Source: an uncultured Carboxylicivirga sp.
GTDB lineage: Bacteria; Bacteroidota; Bacteroidia; Bacteroidales; Marinilabiliaceae
Assembly (NCBI RefSeq): GCF_963668385.1
Contig: NZ_OY764327.1
Coordinates: forward strand, 5,304,501 to 5,368,500
DNA: 64,000 nt
Reading direction: 5' to 3'
The notes below the pieces were generated by a model. The model was not told the DNA's origin. It was given only the letters and a program-made list of their open reading frames with translations, and searched no databases. A program made the position numbers and the translations under genes. The first letter of the stretch is position 1. Each line of letters starts with the position of its first letter. Of the stretch, positions 47,985 through 64,000 are shown piece by piece.

Positions 47985-48965
47985 CTAGGCACTCCTAATC
48001 TTACCTGTCAAGATATTATATACGGCTAAAAAGAAATATTTAATATTAGTTGTATACGGATACTTCTCCTTTTCCTCCATATAAATACGCTCAGCCTCAA
48101 TATTTCCTTTATTATCTGCCATTAATAAAGAAACATATGGAGGAATGCAGCCTGGTTTAAATTGAACTCGCTTTTGACGAATATCTTCCGGCAATTCTTT
48201 AAATCGAGCTTCACTAAGTGGTCTGACTCCAACTAATGCTAAATCACCTTTTAGTAAGTTAAATAACTGAGGTAATTCATCAATCCAGTATTTTCTAAGA
48301 AACTTACCTAATCTTGTTAATCGAAAATCATCTTTTGGCTTTCCTTTTGTATTATATCCATTCATTCCAACCACATATTCCTGCAAATATTCCGAATATG
48401 GATACATTGTCCTAATCTTATAAACTTTTACTCTATTGCCTCCTTTTCCAATTCGTTCCATCGGAATAATAAATCTACTATTATTTTCTGGTTCGATTTT
48501 TGGCAAAGCAATTTTCATAACGCATATATGCAAAGTATCTTTGATGTTTCTGAAATCAATTATTGTAAATCCGGCATTAACTAATCGTCCCATCACTTCA
48601 GCTTTAGACTTACGATCCTTGAATAACTTATAATACTTTGATTCACTCATTTTAATATTACATAGAAGTAATCCCCCATCACCTAACAAATGATTTAATT
48701 GATAAAGATATTTCTGACCTTCTTTAAAAATTAGTGGATTTAAATCAATTATGACATTAAAACCCGATTGAGTTAATGTTGATCGATGATGATGAAAATC
48801 AAATACAGCTATATTTTTTTGAGTAAGAGATGCATTCTCTGACATAAAACGAAACACATCTTCACCTTGACTCTTGATTAATCGATAAATCGTTGAGCTT
48901 CGATGCAACGCTGAAATCGGTTTATGATCCGAAACTTTTCGTATTGATGTCCCTCCTGCTGCCAT
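47985..48965 (-). CDS. Bacterial sugar transferase-like protein with an unusual N-terminal domain
   Basis: 326 residues. The C-terminal half (about 165-326) is a bacterial sugar transferase/phosphoglycosyl transferase domain: RIGKGGNRVKVYKIRTMYP, DDFRLTRLGKFLRKYWIDEL, PQLFNLLKGDLALVGVRPLS. Such enzymes move a sugar-1-phosphate onto undecaprenyl phosphate to begin a glycan repeat. The N-terminal half lacks the usual multi-pass helices and instead has a soluble alpha/beta domain (NIAVFDFHHHRSTL; GDGGLLLCNIKMSE) faintly like an SAM-methyltransferase core. The frame stays open 27 codons upstream of the chosen ATG with no ATG, GTG or TTG, so the true start may be unconventional. It ends the polysaccharide cluster. 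Confidence 0.75.
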   Translation of the reverse strand: MAAGGTSIRKVSDHKPISALHRSSTIYRLIKSQGEDVFRFMSENASLTQKNIAVFDFHHHRSTLTQSGFNVIIDLNPLIFKEGQKYLYQLNHLLGDGGLLLCNIKMSESKYYKLFKDRKSKAEVMGRLVNAGFTIIDFRNIKDTLHICVMKIALPKIEPENNSRFIIPMERIGKGGNRVKVYKIRTMYPYSEYLQEYVVGMNGYNTKGKPKDDFRLTRLGKFLRKYWIDELPQLFNLLKGDLALVGVRPLSEARFKELPEDIRQKRVQFKPGCIPPYVSLLMADNKGNIEAERIYMEEKEKYPYTTNIKYFFLAVYNILTGKIRSA

Positions 48966-50145: not shown

Positions 50146-52056
50146 TTATGAAACAGTATTCTCTACCTTATGATCTAAATCACAGAATTGACTATTCTGC
50201 GAAATATATTCAGGCACAAGATCTTTCATACGACTTACCAAGAGAGTATCGTTCTCAATTTGTAAAGCAAATAACAAATCTTTGATTTTCTGCTCTACTT
50301 CACGATATACATGCCGACGTACTTTGCCTATCATTATTTTTTCATGATGCGTAGGCAATGTATTTTCTTTCGAAGCTAATAATTCTTCATATAACTTCTC
50401 ACCTGGACGCAGTCCTGTAAATACAATTTTAACATCCTCATCAACCTTTAAACCTGATAAACGAATCATTTCTGAAGCCAAATCAACAATCTTAACAGGC
50501 TCTCCCATATCAAATAAGAATATTTCACCTCCAGCTCCCATAAAACCAGCTTCTAATACTAATTGACAAGCTTCTGGTATTGTCATAAAATAACGGGTAA
50601 TATCCTTATGTGTTACTGTTATAGGTCCTCCTTGTGCTATTTGCCTTTTGAACAATGGAACCACAGATCCATTCGATCCTAAAACATTACCAAAACGAGT
50701 GGTTATAAAAGCAGTTTTTATGGTTTCTAATTGAGATAAGGCCTGAATATAAATTTCACAAATACGTTTTGAAGTTCCCATTACATTGGTAGGATTCACA
50801 GCCTTATCGGTAGATATCATTACAAATTTCTCAACATTAAACTGAATAGACAAATCTGCAAGGTTTTTGGTTCCTCCAATATTAACACGTATAGCTTCGT
50901 AAGGATACGTTTCCATTAACGGTACATGCTTATACGCAGCTGCATTAAAAACAATATCTGGTTTAAACCTATCAAATACATCAACCAATCTTTTTTTATT
51001 GGTTATATCTGCTAATACAACCTCAAAAGGAGCATCACTATGGCTTAACAACAACTCTTGTTGCAAATCATACAATGCTGACTCTGCAATATCAAGCATT
51101 ATTATCTTCTGTACACTAAAACGCAATAATTGTCGAACAATTTCAGATCCAATAGAACCGGCAGCACCAGTAACCAAAATTACCTTACCATCAAGTCCTT
51201 CCATTATACGACCCAAATTCAGCTTAATCTCATCTCTTCCTAAAATATCTTCAATTCGAATATCCCTGATCTGCTTATCATTTGAAATACCATTTACCCA
51301 GCTATCTACCGATGGCATTATTTTAAGTTTCCAACCTTTGTTAATACAGTCTTCTGTAATCTTATGTTTTTGTTGTATACTGATTGTCTTGATAGCTAAA
51401 ATAACTTCTTTCACATTTTTACTATCACCTGTCTCCAATGCTTTTTCCCATGATAAAACCGGATAAGAATGCATTTTAACTCCTAATTTGCAGGCACTAT
51501 CATCAATAAGCCCCACAACATTATATTCACTATCCATGTCGCTTTTAATGGCCTCAAGTGTAATTTGCCCCATATCACCCGCTCCATAAATAAAGACATT
51601 AGTAAATGTTCTTTTTTTGGTTAATAAAGCATAAATTTCTTTTACCAGTACCCGAAAACCGACCATTAATACGACTGTTGTAACAAAATGGGCCACCAAA
51701 ACCATACTTGCTACATTAATCCAATGAATATGCATTAGGTCAAATACATAATTAGCTAAAGATAAGATAAGAAAGGCAGCAAATGAAGTTAAAAGTACTT
51801 GCTTAAATTCATTATAGTTACTATGCCGAATTACACCTTTGTAAGAACCAGAAAACAAAAAGGCGGCACAATATACTACACCAACCCATAAAATATTGTT
51901 TATCAAGTTCGATACCGGATAATTAACCAACGATACATTTAACCTCACTGCATAAGCAAAAATAAATGCATTTATAACTAAAAATAAATCGATAGACAAT
52001 ATTAACCAGGGAGAAACAATTCTTCCCTTAACTATTCGTGAAAGTACCCACTTCAT
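50146..52056 (-). CDS. Membrane UDP-sugar 4,6-dehydratase (PglF/WbpM/CapD type)
   Basis: 636 residues: four N-terminal membrane helices (about 15-140), a first Rossmann domain (GAGDMG, 158-163) and the dehydratase domain with GAAGSIG (297-303). The usual YxxxK of short-chain dehydrogenases is Met426-x-x-x-Lys430 (NVMGTSK), as in long membrane-bound dehydratases that act on UDP-GlcNAc. The product would be a UDP-4-keto-6-deoxy sugar, the natural substrate of the PglE-like aminotransferase encoded in the same cluster. It is separated from Wzc by a 309-base gap and probably has its own promoter. Confidence 0.93.
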   Translation of the reverse strand: MKWVLSRIVKGRIVSPWLILSIDLFLVINAFIFAYAVRLNVSLVNYPVSNLINNILWVGVVYCAAFLFSGSYKGVIRHSNYNEFKQVLLTSFAAFLILSLANYVFDLMHIHWINVASMVLVAHFVTTVVLMVGFRVLVKEIYALLTKKRTFTNVFIYGAGDMGQITLEAIKSDMDSEYNVVGLIDDSACKLGVKMHSYPVLSWEKALETGDSKNVKEVILAIKTISIQQKHKITEDCINKGWKLKIMPSVDSWVNGISNDKQIRDIRIEDILGRDEIKLNLGRIMEGLDGKVILVTGAAGSIGSEIVRQLLRFSVQKIIMLDIAESALYDLQQELLLSHSDAPFEVVLADITNKKRLVDVFDRFKPDIVFNAAAYKHVPLMETYPYEAIRVNIGGTKNLADLSIQFNVEKFVMISTDKAVNPTNVMGTSKRICEIYIQALSQLETIKTAFITTRFGNVLGSNGSVVPLFKRQIAQGGPITVTHKDITRYFMTIPEACQLVLEAGFMGAGGEIFLFDMGEPVKIVDLASEMIRLSGLKVDEDVKIVFTGLRPGEKLYEELLASKENTLPTHHEKIMIGKVRRHVYREVEQKIKDLLFALQIENDTLLVSRMKDLVPEYISQNSQFCDLDHKVENTVS

Positions 52057-52365: not shown

Positions 52366-54693
52366 CTAATCGTAATACTTACCACTATATGCATAAGAAT
52401 TATAAGCCCTTTTTGTTACTGGCAAATCATTTAACAACAAACAAAGGTTCTTAATTTTAGCTACTTTACTATCCCTTAAAAGATTAAACAGCATAGCCTT
52501 CGGTGTATGATTATGACGTGTAACAAAAATAGTAAGATCGGCATATTTTTGAAGCAATGCCGCATCTGTAACCAAGCCAATTGGTGGTGAATCAATTACA
52601 ATGACTTCATATAATCGGTCTAATTCTTCCAATAAAGTATTGGTTCTGTCTCTGGCGATCAATTCTGCAGGATTTGGAGGTGTAACTCCAGCTGGTATAA
52701 CGTCCAGGTTTGGATATTCCGTAGTTTCAATTAAGTGCATATCCTTATCTGTACTCGACAAATGACGACTCAAACCTGTACCATTCGATTTAATCCTTAA
52801 CACCTTATCAATAGTTGGCCGACGCATATCAAAATCAATTAATAAAGTTTTCTTCCCTAACTGAGCGTATGAAATAGCTATGTTTACAGACGTAATACTT
52901 TTACCTTCTCCAGGCAAACCAGATGTCAACAATATTTTACGAGCACCTCCATTTGTTGGATAAAATTCAAGACTTGTTCTGATTGATCGAATGGTTTCTG
53001 ATATAGATGATCTTGGATTGAGCATACCATTTAGTATATCCTCACTTTTCGACCATCGAGGCACAACTCCAATTAAAGGTATTTGAGTTTTACTCTCCAG
53101 ATCTTCCCGATCTAAAATCTTATTGTTTGTCATTACAATCAGAAAGATAATTCCAAAGGGTAAAAACACCCCAAAGAAAACCACCATTATCAAGAAAGTT
53201 TTCATATTAGGTTTAACAATTCCCGCTGCTCTGGCATATTCAACCACTTCATTATCTGGTGTATTTGCAGCCTTGGCTAACTGAGCATCTGATCGTCTCT
53301 CAATCAGGTAAGTATACATCTTATCTGTTGTCTGGAATTTGCGCTCTATATCCAAGAGTTTTTGCTCTTGTTTTGGTAACCTTCTGATATCACGGCTCAA
53401 GGCCATTAATCGTTGATCAACACCATTAATGGCTTTATTTGTCGATTGGATATTACTTTGAGCCTGCTGCTCAATTGATCTTTTTAAAACATCCATTCGA
53501 CGAGCGATACGAGCAACATTAGGGTTCTCTATTTTTGAATTAAATTGCAATCCCTCTTTCTCTGCGTTTAAGGTACTTAGCTCAGTAATCATCTGTCCAA
53601 TCATCGGGTTTTCAACACCGTAAGCAGATGGAGGTAAAAGATTAAGTACATCCTGATCGCCTTTCATATAGTCCACCAGATAATTGAAATAATCCAGTTG
53701 TGTTTGCAATAAATTCTTCTCAACCTGCAGCTCTTGTGTTTTATCTATAATCATTTGCCCTTGAGCCGATACATCCATCATCTCGTTACGAGACCTGAAA
53801 TTTTCTAAAACAGATTTAGCAACGCTTAAAGAATCTCCTACTCCAATTAATTGACTTTCGATAAAGCGAATGGTGTTATTAGCCACCTGGTTTTTCTTTT
53901 CCAATGTGTAATTCACTGAATTTCGGGCCAACTCATTAATAAAATCTTTTCCTTTTTGAACATTGTTAACATCAAGACTTATATCAAAAACAGATGATCC
54001 TCTATGAAAATTATTAATACTAACCCTTGATTTAAAATTACTTATCAAATAGAACTCTGAATTAATAGTAAAACTATATTGCTTAGAACGATAATTGCTG
54101 CTTCCAATTTTATCTTCATTGGGAATAATAGCAAACTCATTACCATCGAGATTAATTTTTTCAAAAAAGACATGCCTTGATTTAAAATCTGCATTCTTCT
54201 CTTTTGTTAATTCAAATGTTTTTTCATCAATAAAATTAATGTTATAGTGTTGATAGACCACATCGCTTTTGGGCGTTTCTAATTTTATCACAAAAGGCGA
54301 TTCTTTGTATATCTCTCTTTTATAGAATGTTTCATCTTCGAAATAACTAATCTGAAAATCAAGATTAGCCAAAGTCTTTTCTATTTGTTTGGTAGAGGTT
54401 AAAATAACCAACTGGTTTTCAATATTGCTATAAGCTCCAATATTAATTCCAGGTAAAGCACCTTCGGCTGAACCAATTGTTGGTACTTCTTTTTGATCAC
54501 CAGAAATTAATAATTGGGCATTTACCTTATACAAGGGTACGGTTGATTTATATAAATAAAAAACAGCTGCCAACGTTATCACCAAACATATAGGTAAGAT
54601 ATACCAATAACGTAAAGCTCTTAATATGATTTTCCAAAAATCAAACGATTTTTCATCTTGCTGAAAAGATTCGCTATCGGGAAAATTATCCAT
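52366..54693 (-). CDS. Wzc-type chain-length determinant with tyrosine autokinase domain
   Basis: Inner-membrane polysaccharide copolymerase and BY-kinase of 775 residues. A Wzz domain starts after the first membrane helix (about 32-52). A long periplasmic coiled coil follows (about 280-490), then the second helix (about 500-525), and the kinase with Walker A SGLPGEGKS (Lys598), Walker A' LLIDFDMRRP and Walker B VIVIDSPP. The last 14 residues hold five tyrosines (KRAYNSYAYSGKYYD), the usual autophosphorylation tail. Gene spacing to Wza is one base. Together they control length and export of a surface polysaccharide. Confidence 0.95.
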   Translation of the reverse strand: MDNFPDSESFQQDEKSFDFWKIILRALRYWYILPICLVITLAAVFYLYKSTVPLYKVNAQLLISGDQKEVPTIGSAEGALPGINIGAYSNIENQLVILTSTKQIEKTLANLDFQISYFEDETFYKREIYKESPFVIKLETPKSDVVYQHYNINFIDEKTFELTKEKNADFKSRHVFFEKINLDGNEFAIIPNEDKIGSSNYRSKQYSFTINSEFYLISNFKSRVSINNFHRGSSVFDISLDVNNVQKGKDFINELARNSVNYTLEKKNQVANNTIRFIESQLIGVGDSLSVAKSVLENFRSRNEMMDVSAQGQMIIDKTQELQVEKNLLQTQLDYFNYLVDYMKGDQDVLNLLPPSAYGVENPMIGQMITELSTLNAEKEGLQFNSKIENPNVARIARRMDVLKRSIEQQAQSNIQSTNKAINGVDQRLMALSRDIRRLPKQEQKLLDIERKFQTTDKMYTYLIERRSDAQLAKAANTPDNEVVEYARAAGIVKPNMKTFLIMVVFFGVFLPFGIIFLIVMTNNKILDREDLESKTQIPLIGVVPRWSKSEDILNGMLNPRSSISETIRSIRTSLEFYPTNGGARKILLTSGLPGEGKSITSVNIAISYAQLGKKTLLIDFDMRRPTIDKVLRIKSNGTGLSRHLSSTDKDMHLIETTEYPNLDVIPAGVTPPNPAELIARDRTNTLLEELDRLYEVIVIDSPPIGLVTDAALLQKYADLTIFVTRHNHTPKAMLFNLLRDSKVAKIKNLCLLLNDLPVTKRAYNSYAYSGKYYD

Positions 54694-54694
54694 G

Positions 54695-55483
54695 TTAATC
54701 CTGAGTTAAAGTAGTATTGTAAAAAGTATAAAGAAGTATACCTGTATTTAAGAAAGTAAGAACTAAACCAATTGGCACCGTACTTAAATTGATTGCTTTT
54801 AAACGACGAGGTTCTACATATAAAATATCACCAGGTTTCACATAAAAATAGGGTGAATTAATTAACTTATCTTCCAGCGTATTAATGACAAACATTTGCT
54901 GTATATCACCTTCTTTCCTAATTAAACGAACTCTTTTACGATTAGCAAAATCAGTCATATCTCCTGCCATACTTAATGCTTCAAGTATATTAATCTGCTC
55001 ATCGTACAATAAAAATCTCCCTGGTCCTCTTACTTCTCCTATTACTGTAATGTTATCGTTCAATAATTTAACAACCACACTACTTTGTTCAATATATTTT
55101 GAAACCGCCAGTTGCATTTTCTGACGAATCTGCTCCAATGTTAAATTAGCTACATATACTTTGCCTACAAAAGGAAAGTAGATTGAACCATCATCCTCAA
55201 CTCTGTATCCGGCTAAGCTTGCTGACATTGGGCTTTCGATACGTGTAGTTGCACCTGATTCATTATTTAAGAATGCCGAAGTACGTTCATCCAAACTATT
55301 AATGCGGATATATAAATTATCACTTGGTTTAACAAGATAGGAGCCTTTTTCAACATCGTAAGTTGCCTCTACATCGCTCAATTCTTTAGCAATCTCGCCC
55401 TGCAAATAAATCGACTTTTTTAAAGATACACAGGAAGTTAGAAATATACCTGTTATCAATATTAGATAATAACTAATTTTCAT
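54695..55483 (-). CDS. Wza-type polysaccharide export lipoprotein
   Basis: 262 residues with lipobox LTSC (Cys18). A polysaccharide-export (Poly_export) domain (about 45-135; VKPSDNLYIRINSLDE; YFPFVGKVYVANLTLEQIR) and one SLBB domain (about 138-230; VTVIGEVRGPGRFLLYDEQINILEALSMAG) are visible. The C-terminal segment (VPIGLVLTFLNTGILLYTFYN) is a hydrophobic helix that would cross the outer membrane or anchor the octamer. It forms the outer-membrane pore for the glycan, with Wzc downstream. Confidence 0.94.
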   Translation of the reverse strand: MKISYYLILITGIFLTSCVSLKKSIYLQGEIAKELSDVEATYDVEKGSYLVKPSDNLYIRINSLDERTSAFLNNESGATTRIESPMSASLAGYRVEDDGSIYFPFVGKVYVANLTLEQIRQKMQLAVSKYIEQSSVVVKLLNDNITVIGEVRGPGRFLLYDEQINILEALSMAGDMTDFANRKRVRLIRKEGDIQQMFVINTLEDKLINSPYFYVKPGDILYVEPRRLKAINLSTVPIGLVLTFLNTGILLYTFYNTTLTQD

Positions 55484-55663
55484 TATTTGTTTATTTACTT
55501 TCCAGATACAAATATTTATAAAATAGCACAGACGGCCATCTCGTTAATCAGTGTTTTTAAAGTATTCATCAAAATGACAATTACAGTAGTATTCTAACAA
55601 TAGATTCTAAAAACTTTATATGATTACCTATTCCTTTGCCTATGATTCTCAAATTGAAGACTA

Positions 55664-56722
55664 TCAACCAGACTTTGGCATTAGACTATAAAAAAATAAA
55701 TAAATCTTATATTTAAATTTATTCATGACCCAATACCTGCTCCCTTCTGTTGTAATATGATAAGCTCCGAATCCTTCTTTAAATCGAGTTACCCCAGGTC
55801 CTCCGGCAACACCTAAATCGTAGAACGAGTAGTTTTTTTCGATACTCAGCCGAATCATCTGATCATGCAGAAAATGTCCAACCTTTCTATCAGTATCTTC
55901 TCTTTTAACTCCACCAAAAACATAAGTCAACCGGCAGCCAAAATCAAAGATGACCAAAGCTCCTTTCATTTCCTCACCGACATAACAACAAGGTACCAAA
56001 CACAAGCCCTGATCGACCATTTTTAGCAAAGTATCCTTGATCTTGTCCCAGCTTCTTAAGCGATATTGATGCAATTGTGCCACTTCCTCAATAATACGAT
56101 AAGCTACCTCAACTTCCTTTTTATCAGTTGCATATTTAAGCGTTAACTTATTATCCAATGCAAGCCTAATATTTCGTCGTGTACTCTTATTAAACTGACT
56201 TATTGTATCCTTATAAGAATCTTCTGTATTTTGAATTACCACAGGACGAAAACCATTAATAGATGTCACAAATGGGAATTTACTTCCTGTAAGTGCATTT
56301 CTAAAAATATTGTACTCTTTAATTTTCAATGTACTTGAATCTATCAAATCACATGATTCTTCCAGGACAGGTACTCGTATCTGGCAATAAAAAGCTCTTT
56401 TTGTTTTAGCCTTTTCTAAAAACTTCTCAACGATGTAATCAAATAATTCCTCATAACCATTTTCAATTATAGGCCCATTAGAAGCAATCAATACCTTGAA
56501 AAAAGGAATTCCAACAATCAGAATTCCCAATCCGGCAACAATATTACCACCTTTATTTTTTACAATGAAGAGCTCGTAATTAAACCCTTGATAACTATGA
56601 AATGACTTTAACCAATGCCCTGATTGCTGGCAATGGCCTCGCGGAGTGCGCTGCAAGAAGGAATCCCAATCTTCAATATCCTTTTCAGATTGAGTCCAAT
56701 AATATTGATAGTTATCAATCAT
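55664..56722 (-). CDS. FemAB/GNAT-fold acyltransferase, first of two
   Basis: 352 residues. The GNAT-like C-terminal half has the FemAB-type pattern FNKSTRRNIRLALDNKLTLKYAT (about 180-202) and a C-terminal YDLGVAGGPGVTRFKEGFGA (about 310-330), as in FemAB-related acyl- or aminoacyl-transferases associated with exopolysaccharide loci. It could transfer an amino acid or acyl group to an amino-sugar. The next upstream gene is a diverged paralogue with 27 bases between them. It lies in the transcript that leads to Wza and Wzc. The donor, such as aminoacyl-tRNA, acyl-CoA or acyl-ACP, is undetermined. Confidence 0.82.
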   Translation of the reverse strand: MIDNYQYYWTQSEKDIEDWDSFLQRTPRGHCQQSGHWLKSFHSYQGFNYELFIVKNKGGNIVAGLGILIVGIPFFKVLIASNGPIIENGYEELFDYIVEKFLEKAKTKRAFYCQIRVPVLEESCDLIDSSTLKIKEYNIFRNALTGSKFPFVTSINGFRPVVIQNTEDSYKDTISQFNKSTRRNIRLALDNKLTLKYATDKKEVEVAYRIIEEVAQLHQYRLRSWDKIKDTLLKMVDQGLCLVPCCYVGEEMKGALVIFDFGCRLTYVFGGVKREDTDRKVGHFLHDQMIRLSIEKNYSFYDLGVAGGPGVTRFKEGFGAYHITTEGSRYWVMNKFKYKIYLFFYSLMPKSG

Positions 56723-56749
56723 TCAGCTTTAGTGTTTTATCCGTATCCT

Positions 56750-57823
56750 TCAAATAAGAATATTCTTATTTTCGCCTCTATACAAAGGAAAAAAATGCGA
56801 CATTCCGCCATCTTCCTTATCATTTTTCATCATTTTTTGCTTATTATCAACAAGCAACTTATAAACTTGAGAATCAAATATTCGAGATCCGACTTTATAG
56901 GAAAAAATACTGGATGGAGCAAAATCACTTTTAAATTTCAAAAGACTGTCATTTTGATGATAACCTCCGCCTAACACATAGTATCTTCTATTATTATTTA
57001 TTCCCCACTTCATAATCTCAAATTTCAATAATTCATTGGGGCGCATATAAAAATAATCTTCAAGAGTACCTCCTAAGTAATAATACATTTTTTCATCAGA
57101 TAACAATACTAGTTCTGCTGCAATATCCAGATCTCCTTTTTTTACAAATACATAGATAAAATTACCCTTTAAGTGACTATTGATATACTCGAAATAAGAC
57201 CGATTCATGTAATATTTAGGAGCTGCTTCTAAACGCTGCATTGTTCTATAATAAACATTAACAAATGAATCCAGCTTAATCCCCTCAAAATCAAATTCAA
57301 TAGTAAGATTATGACTTAAAGCTTTTCGAATATTGCGTCTTACCTTTGGTTTAAATTCATCCCATAACACAGATTCTCCCTTATATAGATCACAAGCCAC
57401 AATATCATTATTGTATTGCAAGTCTCCTGTATAATAATTTCGACTTCTACTAAAAGCATCAAACCTGATAAACTCGCTTATTATTTTATTATCTCTGACC
57501 CAATTTTGAAAAACTCTATCGAACTCATCCAACACTACACGATCTTCACCATGACCAATCAAATAGATATCTCCAAAACCATAAGGAGTTATGATATCAT
57601 AATATTTTTCTGACAAAACATTTTGCGCTACCTCTCTCAAACAAAAAGGGAACAAAACTATTTGCTCCCCTTTACTGTATAAGGCACACATTGGTTCCGA
57701 ATATCCTTTATAGAGCAACAGATAATCGGGATGAGCAAACACTTCTTTACCCTTCCACTGGGTCCAGATATCTATCCATTCCTTATAATCATCCTGCTGA
57801 TTTGCTCTAAGTATTCGAAACAT
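56750..57823 (-). CDS. FemAB/GNAT-fold acyltransferase, second of two
   Basis: 357 residues, paralogous to its downstream neighbour. Visible signatures are LWDEFKPKVRRNIRKALSHN (about 135-154), matching the K-x-R-R-N-I-R pattern of BioF2-like GNAT acyltransferases, and YYVLGGGYHQNDSLLKFKSDFAP (about 280-302). The start is 3 bases from the aminotransferase stop, so translation is coupled. Two copies suggest two different acceptors or two residues added in sequence. Confidence 0.82.
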   Translation of the reverse strand: MFRILRANQQDDYKEWIDIWTQWKGKEVFAHPDYLLLYKGYSEPMCALYSKGEQIVLFPFCLREVAQNVLSEKYYDIITPYGFGDIYLIGHGEDRVVLDEFDRVFQNWVRDNKIISEFIRFDAFSRSRNYYTGDLQYNNDIVACDLYKGESVLWDEFKPKVRRNIRKALSHNLTIEFDFEGIKLDSFVNVYYRTMQRLEAAPKYYMNRSYFEYINSHLKGNFIYVFVKKGDLDIAAELVLLSDEKMYYYLGGTLEDYFYMRPNELLKFEIMKWGINNNRRYYVLGGGYHQNDSLLKFKSDFAPSSIFSYKVGSRIFDSQVYKLLVDNKQKMMKNDKEDGGMSHFFPLYRGENKNILI

Positions 57824-57826
57824 ATT

Positions 57827-58981
57827 CTACTTAATCAATGCATTATTTTTTTTAAGAACCTTATTTAAAACATTCTCAATACGTTCCCGATCCTCATTGC
57901 TAAGGTTACTTCCCGAAGGAAGGCAAAGTCCCTGATCAAAAAGCTTTTCTGAAACACCTGTACCATAAAACGGACAACCATCAAAAACAGGTTGTAAGTG
58001 CATTGGTTTCCATAATGGACGTGATTCTATATTTTCTTCTTCCAAACTTAAGCGAATATCTTCACGTGAGATTCCACCTGTATTTTCCGGATCAACAATG
58101 ATGGCTGTCAACCAATAATTCGAGAAATAATCAGAATCAGGCTCCGATTGAAAGCTAACTCCAGGTACATCTTTCAACACATTACGATACCAGTTATTCA
58201 TATCCCTTCGTTTTTGAATATGGTTATCCAAAACCTCCATCTGACCTAACCCAATACCAGCAACAATATTACTCATCCGATAATTATATCCAATATGAGT
58301 ATGCTGATAGTGAGGTGCATTATCGCGAGCCTGAGTAGCTAAAAACCTTGATTTGGCAATTAAATCCTCATCCTCCGAAACCAAAGCTCCGCCACCTGAT
58401 GTGGTAATTATTTTGTTTCCATTAAAAGATAAAATACCAGCTTTTCCAAAGGTTCCAGTCTTTTTACCTTTGTAAACCGAACCTAACGATTCTGCGGCAT
58501 CTTCAATAACAGGAATGGAATATTTGTTAGCAATTTCCATAATCTGCTCCATCTTTGCAGGCATTCCGTACAAATGTACTGGTATTATAGCTTTAGGCTT
58601 TTTGCCTTTACTTAATCTGTCATGAATAGCTTCTTCCAGCTTTTCAGGACTCATATTCCAGGTATCCGGTTCTGAATCCACTAAAATAGGTATAGCTCCT
58701 AAATATTTTATTGGGTTAACAGATGCTGCAAAAGTAAAACTCTGAACCAATACCTCATCTCCACTTCCTACATCAGCCAAAATCAAAGCTAAGTGTAATG
58801 CCGCCGTTCCGGCACTTAAAGCCGATACATGCCCGGCTCCCATATATTCAGATAGAACTTTTTCGAATCCGTTTACATTCGGCCCCAATGGAGCAATCCA
58901 ATTGGTGTCGTAAGCTTCTTGTACATACTTCATTTCATTACCCCCCATATGAGGCGATGAAAGCCAAATTTTACTTTTCAT
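57827..58981 (-). CDS. DegT/DnrJ/EryC1/StrS sugar aminotransferase (PglE-like)
   Basis: 384-residue PLP enzyme that converts a nucleotide 4-keto-6-deoxy sugar to the 4-amino sugar. Lys190 in LSFNGNKII is the Schiff-base lysine and Asp161 (EDAAESLGS) binds the pyridine nitrogen. The N-terminus LSSPHMGGNEMKYV is the signature of the PglE/WecE subgroup. With the membrane dehydratase encoded 6 kb downstream it would form UDP-4-amino-4,6-dideoxy-GlcNAc or a related sugar, whose free amine is a natural site for N-acylation by neighbouring enzymes. Confidence 0.93.
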   Translation of the reverse strand: MKSKIWLSSPHMGGNEMKYVQEAYDTNWIAPLGPNVNGFEKVLSEYMGAGHVSALSAGTAALHLALILADVGSGDEVLVQSFTFAASVNPIKYLGAIPILVDSEPDTWNMSPEKLEEAIHDRLSKGKKPKAIIPVHLYGMPAKMEQIMEIANKYSIPVIEDAAESLGSVYKGKKTGTFGKAGILSFNGNKIITTSGGGALVSEDEDLIAKSRFLATQARDNAPHYQHTHIGYNYRMSNIVAGIGLGQMEVLDNHIQKRRDMNNWYRNVLKDVPGVSFQSEPDSDYFSNYWLTAIIVDPENTGGISREDIRLSLEEENIESRPLWKPMHLQPVFDGCPFYGTGVSEKLFDQGLCLPSGSNLSNEDRERIENVLNKVLKKNNALIK

Positions 58982-59032: not shown

Positions 59033-60295
59033 TCAATATACTAATTTTTGAATTAAACTCTTATATACTTCAATCCATTCATTCATCTGATCTTCATAAA
59101 ACAGATCAGTTGAATATTCAAGATATCCTGTAAAGTCATCCTGTTCTTCCCAATAAGTATAAAATAAATCCAATTGAGCTCCTTCTCTTTCAAAACATAA
59201 TGGAGTTATATCAACCTTATCTAAGGTTAAATGCATTGGTGGTTCTGATGTAAATCCTGCTTGAAAAAGCGGATTATATGAGAAACTCCTTTTTAAATTC
59301 AAATTCTCTATCAAATGAATAAAAGGAATTTCCTGATTACGATGCGCCATCAATAAGCCCTTACGAACCAGACTCACCACTTCAGTATCTTTTTCTGTAT
59401 TTTTTAAATCAATTAATATAGGAACAATATTAACCAGTGGACCAAATACATCTTTATTCTCTTTTTTTCTTCTATTGGATAAAGGAATGCCTAAAACAAC
59501 TTTATCTTGTTTGCTAACATTACGACACAACAAAACAAAAGCACTCATTAATAAAGTAAAAGGTGCTATTGAATTGTTTTTTGAAAAATCTCTGATTCTT
59601 TCAGACAGCCCTTTATCTATGGTGAAATTTATTCGTTTACCTTTTTTACTTCCTTTTACAGGCCTTTCTTCTTTTAATGGCCACGATATTAAGTAATCTG
59701 TTTCGTTAAAAACATTCTGGTAATACCCCATCATTTTTGCGGCCTCTTTCCCTTCTAAGAAGGTTCGCTCTCTTTCTGCATAATCAGAATAGGAGTCTGA
59801 AATCGTTTCGGTTTGAATATCTTTTCCTGTTATAGCTAGATTGTACAGATCTGATAATTCTTTTCCAAAAACTTGCTTGGAATGCAAATCTATAATGATA
59901 TGATGAATAACAATACTTAACACACTAACATCATTATTAAAAACAAACAAATGCATTCTCACCAATGGAGCTTCTTCAAGATTAAATGGTTTATGTATTT
60001 CCTTATAAATGGCCTCTATGTTTACATCTTCAAAGGGAAAATCCAGGGTAGTTTTTGGAAGTGTTATTACACAATTATCATCTACCTCAAACAAGACTTC
60101 TCTTCCTTTACGATGAAAAGAGTATCGCAACACCTCGTATTTTTTTAGCAAATGATTAGCTGCTACTTCCAATGCCACACCATCCACTTCCCCCTTTATT
60201 TTAAATAACGACGGGATGTGATACGAAGTATCCTGAGGACACATCAAATAATTGATATAAAACTGCTTTTGTATAAAAGAAACCGACTGATTCAT
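59033..60295 (-). CDS. Free-standing nonribosomal-peptide condensation-domain protein
   Basis: 420 residues forming one complete condensation domain and nothing else. The N-lobe has the catalytic motif H131-H132-I-I-I-D136 (VIHHIIIDLHS) and the C-lobe the LGIPLSNRRKKENKDVFGPL, VNIVPIL region (C5-type motif). Such domains catalyse amide or ester bond formation between a carrier-bound acyl group and an amine or hydroxyl acceptor. It starts 8 bases after the sugar amidotransferase stop. A carrier protein is encoded 1.1 kb upstream in the same direction. No adenylation or thioesterase domain is in the window. The catalytic motif is intact, so activity is plausible. Confidence 0.9.
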   Translation of the reverse strand: MNQSVSFIQKQFYINYLMCPQDTSYHIPSLFKIKGEVDGVALEVAANHLLKKYEVLRYSFHRKGREVLFEVDDNCVITLPKTTLDFPFEDVNIEAIYKEIHKPFNLEEAPLVRMHLFVFNNDVSVLSIVIHHIIIDLHSKQVFGKELSDLYNLAITGKDIQTETISDSYSDYAERERTFLEGKEAAKMMGYYQNVFNETDYLISWPLKEERPVKGSKKGKRINFTIDKGLSERIRDFSKNNSIAPFTLLMSAFVLLCRNVSKQDKVVLGIPLSNRRKKENKDVFGPLVNIVPILIDLKNTEKDTEVVSLVRKGLLMAHRNQEIPFIHLIENLNLKRSFSYNPLFQAGFTSEPPMHLTLDKVDITPLCFEREGAQLDLFYTYWEEQDDFTGYLEYSTDLFYEDQMNEWIEVYKSLIQKLVY

Positions 60296-60303
60296 TTTAC
60301 CTG

Positions 60304-61308
60304 TTAAATATCAATTCCTAGTTCTTTTTTAGCATCTTCTATTTGATCCTGAGGCTGATCGGCCAGTTTTTTCAATGCTTCATCGCGTGTAAGAAATCCA
60401 TTTCGAATCAAATGACTTAATTCTAATTCATACGGGCTATATCCGTACTTTTTAATATGCACGTAATTATTGAAGGTATTTATTTTACAGTTGGTTGAAC
60501 ATCCATCCACATCGGCAGGAGCTTCCCACCCCAATGGTTTGATTTGCTCAACAATTTCATCTTCCGAAATTTCTTCTAAACAAAGCAGGTTAATGTTATG
60601 TGGGTAGCTCTTTCCATCTCCCAACAAATTCTCATTCAACTCCATATATTTAGAAACATCATTACCCAACTGATCTTTTAATTTTTGGAGAACCGGACCA
60701 CGACTTTCTTTAAAAAAAGCATAGTTATTTTTGTAATAAATAGTATTCGAAGGAATCTGCCCTAAAGTAAATCCTGCCAAAATAAACGGAATATCTTTTT
60801 CGATGGCAAACTTTAGAGCCGTCATATTTACAATAGAAATACATGAGTTACAATTGGCCGATATTCGGGTTAATGTTTTAGGATTATAAATGGGCAGCGT
60901 TGAACTCACTTTAAACAAGTTCTTCATAAACTTATAAGACGGACGATAAGTAATGTGATCAACTCCTAACTTACTAACAACTTTTTCGATATTCCGAAAA
61001 GCAGTATCTGAAATAAAACCATTGTCCAAAGTAAATGACAAAACATTGAGTTTATATTTCTCAACGGCCAGTTTTAAGGTATAAGTACTATCTTTACCTC
61101 CACTATAACAAACAATTGCATCATATTCGCCTTTAGATCTTGATTCATCAAACAGATTATTAACAGCTGTAATACCTTCCTCAATGCGTTTCTTATCTGT
61201 AGAAATGTACATTTGATCATTACAAAATGAACAAACACCATTATCGTCAAAAGTAATCCTTGGAAAATTCTCTGACATTATACATTTTGTACACCTTTTC
61301 ATTACCAA
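60304..61308 (-). CDS. N-acetyl-sugar amidotransferase (WbpG/PseA-like)
   Basis: 334 residues. An N-terminal zinc-binding set Cys6-Cys9...Cys26-Cys29 is followed by the ATP-pyrophosphatase P-loop SGGKDS (69-74, YDAIVCYSGGKDSTYTL). This arrangement belongs to the enzymes that form an amidino group on a sugar carboxylate or acetamido group (WbpG, PseA, LegA types), usually with a glutamine amidotransferase partner. The possible start at Met3 is equivalent. It lies between the carrier protein and the condensation domain in one transcript. Its ammonia source could be the AsnB-type neighbour; that is speculation. Confidence 0.88.
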   Translation of the reverse strand: MVMKRCTKCIMSENFPRITFDDNGVCSFCNDQMYISTDKKRIEEGITAVNNLFDESRSKGEYDAIVCYSGGKDSTYTLKLAVEKYKLNVLSFTLDNGFISDTAFRNIEKVVSKLGVDHITYRPSYKFMKNLFKVSSTLPIYNPKTLTRISANCNSCISIVNMTALKFAIEKDIPFILAGFTLGQIPSNTIYYKNNYAFFKESRGPVLQKLKDQLGNDVSKYMELNENLLGDGKSYPHNINLLCLEEISEDEIVEQIKPLGWEAPADVDGCSTNCKINTFNNYVHIKKYGYSPYELELSHLIRNGFLTRDEALKKLADQPQDQIEDAKKELGIDI

Positions 61309-61399
61309 TTTTTTAATTTACAATTTCATTCTACGATGTCTGTCTGTATGACACCTTTGCTTGTGGTCTGTTATTTGTCTGTTAGATGATCTTAAAAAG
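61309..61399. other. 91-bp spacer in the polysaccharide cluster
   Basis: Between the carrier protein and the sugar amidotransferase. It contains repeated GTCTGT/TGTCTGT words on the plus strand but no hairpin or promoter box that I trust. Confidence 0.3.
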
Positions 61400-61663
61400 T
61401 TATGAGATCATTAGGGATATGAAATCAACAATTTTAACGACAGAGCCGAAATTCGAACGGTTCATCATTTCTTCTGTCACCTTAAAACTATATTCGTTTT
61501 CGATGTATGAGGCAATCTCAATTAGTCCCATCGAGTCGATAATACCAGTGTCAACCAACGACTCCTCCAGTTCAATATCTTCCTCATCTACCATAAACTG
61601 ACGACACAAAAATGCTATTAAAGCAGCTTGTATCTCTTCTTTATTTTTTATTTTGTCACTCAT
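61400..61663 (-). CDS. Acyl carrier protein
   Basis: 87-residue discrete carrier protein. The 4'-phosphopantetheine attachment serine is Ser44 in GIIDSMGLIEI, the D-S-M/L motif. Flanking helices (EEIQAALIAFLCRQF; YIENEYSFKVTEEMM) complete the four-helix fold. It is not linked to fatty-acid genes. It lies 11 bases after the AsnB-like gene and in front of the condensation-domain gene, so it is likely the carrier for the acyl or aminoacyl group used by the cluster. Confidence 0.93.
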   Translation of the reverse strand: MSDKIKNKEEIQAALIAFLCRQFMVDEEDIELEESLVDTGIIDSMGLIEIASYIENEYSFKVTEEMMNRSNFGSVVKIVDFISLMIS

Positions 61664-61674
61664 AATATCTAATT

Positions 61675-63648
61675 TTAATACTCTGTAATTGCAACGGTTA
61701 ATTTATCGTCAGAAAGGGTATGTTCCTTTGGGTTTTTCAACCAGTAATTGGCGATTTGAGTTGATAAAATAAATGTGATAATCATATTATCTCTATAGCC
61801 AATATTTTCAGGAACTCCGTTTTTAAATTTTTGTAGGAAACGATCCACAAACTTCTGATTGAAAATTCCATATTCTTTAATTTTGTCTTCACTCAGGAAA
61901 TAACCAACATTATCAGAAGGCTTACCATCTCTGAAGAACGACTTCAAATCAGGAGACATATATGGGCGTTTAGGACGATTTAGAATTGATTTTGGTAATT
62001 TATCCTTATAAGATTGAACTAGTAAGTGTTTTTGTGAAAATCCATTCATTTTAAATCGTTCGTTAATAGTAAATAAACTATCAATTAAACGATGATCTAA
62101 AAATGGATAGCGTCCTTCAATACCATGAGCCAACGACATCCGGTCTCCTTGTGAAGACAACAGGTAACCAGCCAGTAAAGTTCTGATTTCCATATACTGA
62201 TTTTGTTGCAACAAACTCCAGCTATTGTAATTTTTCGGAAAGTCTATTGACATACCACCGATAAGGCTAGCTGTATCGTATGATAATCCATGATCTTTAC
62301 TAAAATAATTTTTAATGATTTTATTATTATGAATACGAATATTTAATGAAGCTAGTTTGTTGTCATAAGAGTCCAGAAATCCTTCATAAAACATTTTCAT
62401 CATTCCAAATTGACGAGGATCGCTGTAATGTGTTAAGTGCGGATATAATTTCTTAATCAGCTCAGGTCGCATTTTCGATTCTGGAAATCTCGACCAAAAC
62501 TCAAGCAGTTTAACTTCCTTATAAGAATCATATCCCCACAATACTTCGTCTGCCCCCTCACCTGTCAACACCACTTTTATATCATTTTCTCTTACCTTTT
62601 GTGACAAGAGATACAAAGGCACCGGTGCCGTGCGAAAAATAGGACGATCGGTATGATAAATGGCTTCAGGAAAGTTCTCATCAACCTGTTTATAATTGAT
62701 ATTTAAAAAGTAATGCTCTGAGTTTATCTGGTTCACCATATCCTTTTGAAAGTCTGACTCATCAAACTCCTTATCATCAAAAGCTATGGAAAAAGTTTTA
62801 AATCGTTTATTGGTATTTTCTTTTACCAATTGAGTTATTACTGAACTATCTATTCCCCCACTCAAATAAGCTCCTACAGGCACATCACTTCTCAATCGTA
62901 ATTTAACCGAATCTTTTAGAAGCTCATTGAATTCTTCTTTAACTTCACCAAACGATTTTTTATCCGACTCATACTTTACGCCTAATTCATAGTATTTTTT
63001 CTCGTATACTAATTTACCATCTTTGTATTTGGCAAAGGATCCACCTGGTAAAGATTTAATATTCTTATAAACGGTATGATGACCATAAGTATTCCACAAA
63101 AGACAATGTTCAAACAGGCGGTTTACATCAAACTCGCGAGTAAAACTACCAATCCGGTCAAATGCTTTTAACTCTGATGCAAAATAATGTTTCTGATCGT
63201 GCTCAAGCATATAAAGAGGACGAATACCATAGCGATCGCGAGCAATAATTAACTCCTTACTAACTTTATTCCATATCAATACTGCAAACTGACCATTGAA
63301 CAATTCAAAACACTTCTCCCCATAGTATTCATAGGCTTTCAATAACACTTCTGTATCACTGGTAGTAGTAAAAACAACACCTTTGCTTTTCAGATCTTGC
63401 TGAAGTTCGATATAATTATAAATTTCTCCATTAAATACAATTATATGATCTCCTGAGACCAAAGGTTGATCTCCAGTAGATAAATCAACAATTGACAAGC
63501 GGGTATGTCCCAATGCTATTTCGGGAGATATATACATTCCCCAACCATCAGGCCCCCTGTGTTGAAGTGCAGAAACCATATTTTTGATTTCAAAGCTTCT
63601 TCTATCTCTGTTTAACTCTTTTCCGTAAACGCCTGCAATTCCACACAT
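61675..63648 (-). CDS. AsnB-type glutamine-hydrolysing asparagine synthetase / amidotransferase
   Basis: 657 residues. Cys2 (MCGIAGVYG) is the glutaminase nucleophile, with the Ntn domain to about residue 200. The synthetase domain has the ATP motif SGGIDSS (263-269). The length and the C-terminal portion are those of the class II enzymes found in capsule, lasso-peptide and exosortase-type clusters, as well as true asparagine synthetases. In this locus it may amidate a carboxylate on the carrier-bound acyl group or on a sugar instead of making free asparagine. Its start is 35 bases after the acyltransferase stop, in one operon with the carrier protein. Confidence 0.9.
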   Translation of the reverse strand: MCGIAGVYGKELNRDRRSFEIKNMVSALQHRGPDGWGMYISPEIALGHTRLSIVDLSTGDQPLVSGDHIIVFNGEIYNYIELQQDLKSKGVVFTTTSDTEVLLKAYEYYGEKCFELFNGQFAVLIWNKVSKELIIARDRYGIRPLYMLEHDQKHYFASELKAFDRIGSFTREFDVNRLFEHCLLWNTYGHHTVYKNIKSLPGGSFAKYKDGKLVYEKKYYELGVKYESDKKSFGEVKEEFNELLKDSVKLRLRSDVPVGAYLSGGIDSSVITQLVKENTNKRFKTFSIAFDDKEFDESDFQKDMVNQINSEHYFLNINYKQVDENFPEAIYHTDRPIFRTAPVPLYLLSQKVRENDIKVVLTGEGADEVLWGYDSYKEVKLLEFWSRFPESKMRPELIKKLYPHLTHYSDPRQFGMMKMFYEGFLDSYDNKLASLNIRIHNNKIIKNYFSKDHGLSYDTASLIGGMSIDFPKNYNSWSLLQQNQYMEIRTLLAGYLLSSQGDRMSLAHGIEGRYPFLDHRLIDSLFTINERFKMNGFSQKHLLVQSYKDKLPKSILNRPKRPYMSPDLKSFFRDGKPSDNVGYFLSEDKIKEYGIFNQKFVDRFLQKFKNGVPENIGYRDNMIITFILSTQIANYWLKNPKEHTLSDDKLTVAITEY

Positions 63649-63683
63649 AGTATAGGTTTGATATGATTAATAGTTCTTTATTA

Positions 63684-64000
63684 TTAATTACGAAAACGAT
63701 CCTTTAATTTTAAAAATGGCATTTCGAAATACTGATAGGATATATGTGATACTAAAATGGTACCAATAAATACAGCTAAGTTTACAAAAATTATCACGAT
63801 TGCCGTAGATATTGTTAAGTTATCCCGAAGCTTGAGAAAAACAAATAACACAAAATTTAAAACGATCATATGGTACAAGTACACTCCATAAGAGATCTTA
63901 CCAAGATAATTCATAAACCTGAATCGTCCTAAAACTTCATTGTCTTTCACAATGTTTGAAATCACTAGTGAAAACAATATCAACTCAGTTACATTTTTGA
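63684..64000 (-). CDS. Membrane acyltransferase (acyltransferase-3 family), 5' part beyond the window
   Basis: C-terminal part of a multi-pass O-acyltransferase; the frame is open to the right edge, so the start lies outside. The segment RFMNYLGKISYGVYLYHMIV is the characteristic end-region motif of acyltransferase-3 proteins, followed by one further helix (TAIVIIFVNLAVFIGTILVS) and a short tail. These proteins acetylate or acylate extracytoplasmic sugars. It is upstream of, and in the same direction as, the AsnB gene and seems to belong to the same cluster. Confidence 0.8.
   Translation of the reverse strand, partial: KNVTELILFSLVISNIVKDNEVLGRFRFMNYLGKISYGVYLYHMIVLNFVLFVFLKLRDNLTISTAIVIIFVNLAVFIGTILVSHISYQYFEMPFLKLKDRFRN

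Follow-up and report, generated by a model that had tools for sequence, protein, structure and literature searches.

Single-domain assembly-line genes in a polysaccharide locus of an uncultured Carboxylicivirga: a candidate pathway for a peptide-polyketide side chain on a 4-amino sugar

Introduction

What would a bacterial polysaccharide locus do with a free-standing condensation domain (C), a free-standing adenylation domain (A) and three discrete carrier proteins (CP1 to CP3), that is, with single-domain counterparts of a nonribosomal peptide synthetase (NRPS)? The question is raised by a minus-strand gene cluster of an uncultured Carboxylicivirga sp. (assembly GCF_963668385.1, contig NZ_OY764327.1), whose single-contig genome comprises 6.27 Mb. 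The cluster lies across the right edge of the stretch analyzed here, the 64,000 nucleotides from position 5,304,501 to 5,368,500, hereafter called the window. An earlier sequence-only reading of the window had proposed that a carrier-bound acyl or aminoacyl group is modified and then joined to a 4-amino sugar, as part of a new system of glycan acylation.

The answer that we favor, and to which we would give about an even chance, is that the cluster encodes a dissociated (single-domain, or "type II") hybrid line of NRPS and polyketide synthase (PKS) character, which would place a short side chain on a UDP-linked 4-amino sugar for a polysaccharide of the Wzx/Wzy/Wza type. A narrower version is offered only tentatively, as somewhat short of evenly probable: the chain would be a peptide-polyketide with an amidine or amide end, attached to the 4-amine of a bacillosamine-type sugar, and its starter genes, AsnB-CP1-WbuX together with C, would be shared with NRPS-PKS lines and would here replace the simpler capping enzymes found in related Bacteroidales cassettes.

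The gene cluster

The genes are listed below from right to left. Positions on the right flank refer to a stretch called L002, for which the window coordinate equals the L002 position plus 61499.

L002 5606-7147, outside the window, minus strand: free-standing adenylation domain A, 513 aa; TIGR01733, 336.6 bits, above cut-off
L002 5344-5574, outside the window, minus strand: carrier CP3; PF00550, 20.1 bits, under the cut-off of 20.8
L002 4277-5341, outside the window, minus strand: KAS III; PF08545/PF08541, Cys-His-Asn triad
L002 3984-4220, outside the window, minus strand: carrier CP2; PF00550, 27.7 bits
L002 3317-3949, outside the window, minus strand: NeuD/PglD/VioB acyltransferase; TIGR03570, 195 bits, cut-off 161
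63684..64000 in the window (whole gene L002 2185-3258), minus strand: O-acyltransferase, 357 aa; PF01757, 75.9 bits
61675..63648, minus strand: AsnB-like amidotransferase, 657 aa; TIGR01536, 468 bits, cut-off 267
61400..61663, minus strand: carrier CP1, 87 aa; PF00550, 34.3 bits
60304..61308, minus strand: WbuX/NASAT-like ATP-pyrophosphatase, 334 aa, candidate amidine-forming enzyme; TIGR03573, 160 bits, below the cut-off of 203
59033..60295, minus strand: free-standing condensation domain C, 420 aa; PF00668, 236.7 bits, motif HHIIID
57827..58981, minus strand: PglE/LegC-like sugar 4-aminotransferase, 384 aa; DegT family, PF01041, 339 bits; TIGR04181, 407 bits, cut-off 420
56750..57823, minus strand: FemAB-fold transferase 1; FemAB/GNAT family match
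55664..56722, minus strand: FemAB-fold transferase 2; FemAB/GNAT family match
54695..55483, minus strand: Wza-like export lipoprotein; PF02563
52366..54693, minus strand: Wzc-like co-polymerase/kinase; TIGR01007, 163 bits, above cut-off
50146..52056, minus strand: PglF/CapD-like 4,6-dehydratase, candidate first step of a 4-amino sugar; PF02719, 401 bits

From A through the Wzc-like gene the intergenic gaps measure 1 to 180 bp. C, A and the carriers are separate open reading frames (ORFs) of 420, 513 and 76-87 aa, and are thus not fused as in a modular NRPS, but their catalytic features are those of such synthetases, since C carries HHIIID (HHxxxD) and A scores as an amino-acid-type domain. AsnB, whose nearest PDB relatives are AsnB itself (1ct9) and a hydroxyamidotransferase (7ylz), retains Cys2 and the synthetase loop SGGIDSS; the CP1 motif TGIIDSMGLIE is invariant in five of five aligned relatives, and the catalytic triad of KAS III (nearest PDB entry 4efi) is intact in all 16 sequences read. 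WbuX gave no match in a Pfam scan. Its SGGKDS and CxxC..GxCxxC motifs, invariant in four of four aligned sequences, correspond to the PP-loop SGGxDS and the tetracysteine of the N-acetyl sugar amidotransferases (NASATs), although the score stays below the family cut-off.

All the genes named by the sequence-only reading are present as open minus-strand ORFs of the expected families, the O-acyltransferase being cut by the window edge. The interval assigned to them, 59033-64000, holds C, WbuX, CP1, AsnB and part of the O-acyltransferase gene, while the aminotransferase, the FemAB proteins, Wza and Wzc lie to its left, at 52366-58981. The possibility it raised, that C and the carrier belong to a separate NRPS cluster just outside the window, proved unfounded: the right flank holds single-domain parts and then polysaccharide genes, and C is the only condensation family match in the genome. 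The latter genes, further right of A, encode a HAD protein, an ATP-grasp protein, a PglC-like sugar transferase, glycosyltransferase-like ORFs (one profile-scanned, the others called by eye), an EpsG-like polymerase candidate, a pyruvyltransferase and a Wzx-like flippase. Hence, of the adenylation, exosortase and flippase genes that this reading had suggested looking for on the right, the first and the last are there, but exosortase has no match anywhere in the genome (no PF09721 match at 1e-3). The matching models specific to XrtA loci all score below their cut-offs (391 against 817 bits for AsnB, 38 against 260 for FemAB, 61 against 180 for export, 114 against 231 for the kinase), and together with the absent exosortase this rules out the exosortase/PEP-CTERM origin to which the locus had been likened.

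Several neighboring features are recorded for completeness. At 47985-48965 a bacterial sugar transferase domain is preceded by about 155 residues without a Pfam match at 1e-3. At the right end of the polysaccharide locus, L003 8640-9738 carries DUF4372 and DDE transposase domains over two overlapping frames, which marks an insertion element, its reading frame broken, at the locus edge. Lipoprotein-like ORFs with a motif near G(D/N)IPGMG, called by eye, occur close to polysaccharide or NRPS loci in three genomes (L003 17556-18461, L080 1940-2641 and L081 10815-13299).

The predicted sugar

The enzymes expected to make the acceptor are the easiest to place. The nearest PDB relative of the 4,6-dehydratase is WlaL (5bju), which we take to be PglF, the aminotransferase is closest to 1o61 and 4ztc, presumably both Campylobacter jejuni PglE, and the nearest entry to NeuD is VioB (7txp). 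Because of these solved relatives, and with the PglC-like transferase, the four genes are, as far as sequence relationships tell, the set for a UDP-bacillosamine-type 4-amino sugar.

Most of the parts of carrier-dependent N-acylation of 4-amino sugars are present as well: a PglE/VioA-type aminotransferase (PF01041), a VioB/PglD-family acyltransferase (TIGR03570, above cut-off), and a discrete carrier with a KAS III whose triad is intact. A 3-ketoacyl reductase was not found, with no ORF matching the relatives' SDRs at 1e-10 in a search that used two SDR queries and covered the window right of 45,000, L002, L003, L011, L012 and L081. Since the carrier genes lie beside PglF-, PglE- and PglD/VioB-like genes, the attachment of a carrier-bound group to a 4-amino sugar, as the sequence-only reading had it, is still the best interpretation. 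The anatomy given in that reading was incomplete; A, CP3, KAS III, CP2 and NeuD are all outside the window.

Recurrence of the cluster

The run A-CP3-KAS III-CP2-NeuD-O-acyltransferase-AsnB-CP1-(WbuX)-C-aminotransferase-FemAB keeps its order and orientation, beyond what chance would give, in two other genomes: G018, which is labeled with the same genus as the window genome, and G029, in which WbuX is missing. The proteins are 63-67% (A), 66-74% (CP3), 71-73% (KAS III), 53-60% (CP2), 63-72% (NeuD), 55-58% (O-acyltransferase), 71-74% (AsnB), 79-81% (CP1), 79% (WbuX), 43% (C), 68-71% (aminotransferase) and 44-57% (FemAB 1) identical to those of the window, so that CP1 is the best conserved of the three carriers. 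The run is interrupted by one or two unrelated genes, after C in G029, where a 285-aa gene has no Pfam family match, and after the aminotransferase gene in G018.

The set therefore does occur in other genomes, but the broad conservation across Bacteroidota that had been anticipated is not supported. Among 71 genomes of the GTDB family, six have C-like matches, which are free-standing in three only (G000, G018 and G029), the same three that have KAS III at E <= 1e-100. In a sample of 393 genomes of the order, CP1 is found in two, the window's own and G106; C (E <= 1e-30) is found in 22 and, its own genome excepted, all those listed lie inside frames of at least 1,035 aa. Phylum samples returned only the window's own genome, for both WbuX (E <= 1e-60, 395 genomes) and KAS III (E <= 1e-100, 272 genomes). 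A scan of named genomes gave at least three loci, namely the G018 and G029 contigs again and one modular NRPS, a lower bound because only two narrow peptide patterns were used.

An amine cap exchanged at one slot

When the KAS III search of the order sample is restricted to E <= 1e-143, ten of the 393 genomes remain, including the window's own. In the nine other Bacteroidales genomes (loci L035-L043; genomes G082, G129, G175, G252, G387, G403, G191, G421 and G286) an A-CP3-KAS III core is found without C, AsnB, CP1 or WbuX, and its proteins are 43-54% (A), 47-62% (CP3) and 59-65% (KAS III) identical to those of the window; A is present in eight, and in the ninth the contig ends at that point. 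Directly before CP3 stands a gene for a GNAT protein (seven cassettes) or a formyltransferase (two), these calls resting on Pfam for two GNATs and both formyltransferases and on homology for the others. Eight of the nine continue with one or two SDRs and an MBL-fold gene, and seven have a NeuD-family gene in the vicinity. By eye, these cassettes sit among polysaccharide genes. Twelve weaker KAS III matches (32-37% identity) also exist, and the three inspected (G102, G215 and G324) have no A-CP3-KAS III cassette around them.

The slot before CP3 is thus filled in nine of nine loci that lack C and empty in three of three that have it. We infer that C with CP1, on the one hand, and the GNAT or formyltransferase, on the other, are alternative amine caps at one slot; the predicted products of the nine cassettes are extended side chains built on an amino acid whose amine is capped. 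The 12 loci share descent, so the exchange is a pattern and not 12 independent trials.

A starter trio shared with assembly lines

The genes that would fill the role of the missing cap have relatives in another setting. In G106 the trio AsnB-CP1-WbuX stands directly before a C-A-PCP protein followed by a KS-AT-ACP-TE protein (both by Pfam), and in G030 directly before two C-A proteins, called by similarity and adenylation code only, followed by a KS-AT-ACP protein called by Pfam. Identities to the window are 63-65% for AsnB, 67-69% for CP1 and 70-72% for WbuX. A PPTase-like (phosphopantetheinyl transferase-like) gene, seen by eye, lies within about 10 kb of each of these clusters (L079 in G106, L080 in G030).

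C points the same way. In a tree of 36 condensation domains, limited to non-duplicate matches that cover at least 330 model positions and whose locus was at hand, the three free-standing C domains form one clade (support 100/98) inside a seven-row clade (100/98) that also includes the two C domains of G030, the one of G106 and one from a Prolixibacteraceae genome. In the A domains, an Asp aligned with what we take to be the amine-binding Asp235 is present in all 11 cassette domains read. The specificity code is DQFFFGMVDK in the window and G018 and DQFFLGMVDK in G029; in the NRPS loci two domains read DVWHFSLVDK, presumably a serine code, and one DILQLGMV, which we take to be glycine-like, and the substrate of the window domain is not settled by these.

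Read together, the window cassette looks like the A-CP3-KAS III module with its capping enzyme exchanged for the AsnB-CP1-WbuX and C module. By analogy, we propose that the arrangement in G106 and G030, in which a starter is followed by an NRPS module and then a PKS module, is matched in the window by the separated order CP1 unit, C/A/CP3, KAS III/CP2, and that the sugar acyltransferase takes the place of the G106 thioesterase.

Proposed pathway and its weak points

The carrier substrates, the order of the steps, the product and the final acceptor would then be as follows. The PglF- and PglE-like enzymes would make a UDP-4-amino-4,6-dideoxy sugar of the bacillosamine type, as their families imply, and A would activate an alpha-amino acid and load it on CP3, as family and adjacency suggest. 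On CP1, an acid would be amidated by AsnB; malonyl to malonamyl is our guess, and OxyD provides a precedent for that conversion. Where present, WbuX might turn the amide into an amidine, the reaction ascribed to NASAT/WbpG enzymes on N-acetyl sugars, and its absence from G029 suggests that this is a last, optional step. C would cap the amine of aminoacyl-CP3 with the CP1 unit, a role assigned because its relatives sit in NRPS loci and the usual capping enzyme is replaced. KAS III, judging from its intact triad, would add a malonyl unit to the capped chain on CP2, and the VioB/PglD-type enzyme, to judge by its family, would release the chain from CP2 onto the 4-amine of the sugar. The O-acyltransferase and the FemAB proteins would decorate the product further, and the PglC-like enzyme and glycosyltransferases would build the repeat.

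A number of observations weigh against this pathway. No gene is assigned to the loading of CP1, and the proposed chemistry is predicted throughout. AsnB of G106 has an A-PCP protein just upstream, so that an amino acid, instead of malonate, may be the source of the CP1 unit. The A code, at positions placed by GrsA motifs and hence weak, is not known to match a specific amino acid. As no ketoreductase related to those of the nine cassettes was found in the C-type loci, a reactive beta-keto group would be left unless a housekeeping enzyme acts. The absence of WbuX from G029 means that amidine formation is not essential and, combined with the sub-cut-off score, weakens the amidine role. The window C is linked to the two C domains that follow WbuX at 84/86 only, structure prediction gave poor models, with mean pLDDT (predicted local distance difference test) values of 55 for C (3 rows) and 49 for WbuX (4 rows), and both G018 and G029 were assembled from metagenomes, their contamination being estimated at 6 and 7%.

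Comparison with described systems

Carrier-made acyl groups on sugars are already known. In the viosamine island of Pseudomonas syringae (vioS for KAS III, acp, the reductase gene vioR, vioB and vioA), a KAS III, a reductase, a carrier and VioB are linked to the N-acyl group of viosamine, and for a number of these genes the parts of the report available give support from mutants and mass spectrometry (PMC3927599). Like this island and the glycosylation island of Pseudomonas aeruginosa PAK, as described there, the cluster has a discrete carrier, KAS III, a VioB-family acyltransferase and a 4-aminotransferase (PMC3927599). Compared with these islands, however, it adds a free-standing A, a free-standing C, two further carriers, AsnB and WbuX, no dedicated reductase was found in the stretches searched, and the product is expected to be part of a polysaccharide. 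Closer in taxonomy, Flavobacterium psychrophilum is also a member of the Bacteroidota with a PglF/PglE sugar, a PglD homologue and a dedicated carrier with ketosynthases. Its O-polysaccharide R-group genes, wfpC-wfpG, vary among strains, the acyl group is 3,5-dihydroxyhexanoyl by nuclear magnetic resonance, and the PglD homologue is predicted to take it from the carrier; unlike the cluster, the R-group description, in the portions available, names no A, C, AsnB or WbuX (PMC6519341). Carriers and acyl ligases also occur in flagellin islands of Enterobacteriaceae, according to the part of the source at hand (PMC4875605).

Other likenesses concern single steps, and each is drawn from partial texts. 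Lincosamide synthetase uses NRPS components to link an amino acid to an amino sugar through an amide bond, but in an antibiotic pathway in which NRPS parts are combined with mycothiol metabolism (PMC4351081). VinN, VinL and VinM of the vicenistatin-type pathways for beta-amino acid starters share with the cluster a free-standing adenylation enzyme and a standalone carrier, and with the proposed pathway protection of the amine before extension, a precedent that makes amine capping before chain extension plausible; there, however, a second adenylation enzyme does the protecting, the group is later removed and the product is a macrolactam (PMC11284099). In the work on LpNASAT/WbpG, the PP-loop SGGxDS and a zinc tetracysteine mark NASATs, which are held to turn N-acetyl groups into amidines; these enzymes are placed on sugar N-acetyl groups, whereas the window WbuX scores below the cut-off and travels with a carrier (PMC10607449). 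The nine A-CP3-KAS III cassettes differ in that they cap by GNAT or formyltransferase and have SDR and MBL-fold genes in eight of nine, and the window adds C, CP1, AsnB and WbuX.

Among the literature matches listed, a scope mostly outside subscription journals, the text available describes no free-standing C and no AsnB/WbuX-carrier set in a glycan pathway. The claim of a new glycan acylation must accordingly be narrowed: the wiring of A, C and AsnB-CP1-WbuX appears to be new, but carrier-made N-acylation of 4-amino sugars is not. One described acyl group was considered as a product, namely 3-hydroxy-2,3-dimethyl-5-oxoproline, found on a Qui3N in a source seen in part (PMC3210612). Acetoacetyl and alanine could cyclize to it with A, C and KAS III, and the idea was not adopted because AsnB, CP1 and WbuX would be left unused.

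Alternative explanations

The most serious alternative, which we nevertheless consider unlikely, makes C an amide synthase like VibH. Free-standing condensation domains that use soluble amines exist, VibH among them, and C would then transfer the CP1 unit directly to the 4-amine of the sugar nucleotide, while A, CP3, KAS III, CP2 and NeuD acylate another sugar separately. In both the window and G018, C and the aminotransferase gene are indeed neighbors, in G029 they are one gene away from each other, and two acyl acceptors could account for the presence of both NeuD and C. Yet the nearest solved condensation domains come from modular synthetases (Txo1, 8xjz, Txo2 and TycC), VibH, which we take to be PDB 1l5a, is not among the 25 PDB sequences matched at 1e-10, and the nearest relatives found sit in C-A proteins. 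Such an enzyme would also make the empty capping slot in all three C-type loci a coincidence.

A small diffusible peptide-polyketide, or a siderophore-like compound, made by a pathway that merely happens to lie in a polysaccharide locus is quite unlikely. The trio with C-A-PCP and PKS proteins in G106 and G030 resembles a classical metabolite cluster, and in G106 it includes a thioesterase domain. Against this, profile scans found no thioesterase family among the cassette genes, which instead include the VioB/PglD-type sugar acyltransferase; the PglE-like aminotransferase and FemAB genes follow in three of three loci; and polysaccharide genes flank the cluster on both sides. In G030, too, the NRPS locus abuts a polysaccharide locus with glycosyltransferase- and aminotransferase-like genes.

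It is very doubtful that AsnB and WbuX act on sugars, to form a uronamide and an acetamidino sugar, with CP1 as a mere neighbor that serves other chemistry. WbpS gives a uronamide and WbpG an acetamidino sugar, and AsnB and WbuX are matched, in both cases below cut-off, by TIGR03108 and TIGR03573, models associated with sugars or polysaccharides. WbpG uses a partner pair, but only one HisH-type partner scores above cut-off genome-wide, so that such a pair is not evident. Moreover, AsnB, CP1 and WbuX travel together at 63-72% identity while the rest of the locus becomes an NRPS-PKS line, and CP1 is the carrier under the strongest conservation. The sole solved relative found for WbuX, 8wex (3e-10), is on the side of this alternative, being a lipopolysaccharide enzyme according to the part of its description available (PMC10607449).

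Finally, a dlt-like aminoacylation, in which A and a carrier would feed an MBOAT/SGNH pair about 15-20 kb to the right, is hardly credible, since, although DltA models rank next after the general adenylation model and an MBOAT gene with an SGNH-like neighbor does lie at L003 2526-4964, A falls below both DltA cut-offs (318 against 476 and 303 against 560 bits), neither family is matched in the stretches read of G018 (37 kb) or G029 (a 12.7 kb contig, and thus a weak test), and KAS III, C, AsnB and NeuD would have no role. The pair itself belongs to the same polysaccharide locus, the MBOAT acyltransferase being a Pfam call and the SGNH-like neighbor, without a Pfam match, a call by eye.

Implications

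If the dissociated assembly line is real, surface glycans and nonribosomal metabolites would share building modules, with an assembly-line starter moved onto a sugar. The three cap types found at one slot (GNAT, formyltransferase and C) make the capping idea directly testable. For study, the cluster would also offer C, A and carrier domains that are separate by nature, and it would hint at what A, C and AsnB genes do when they turn up in polysaccharide loci. More broadly, the chemistry of bacterial polysaccharides would be expected to be wider and to include extended, peptide-containing or amidine-ended groups.

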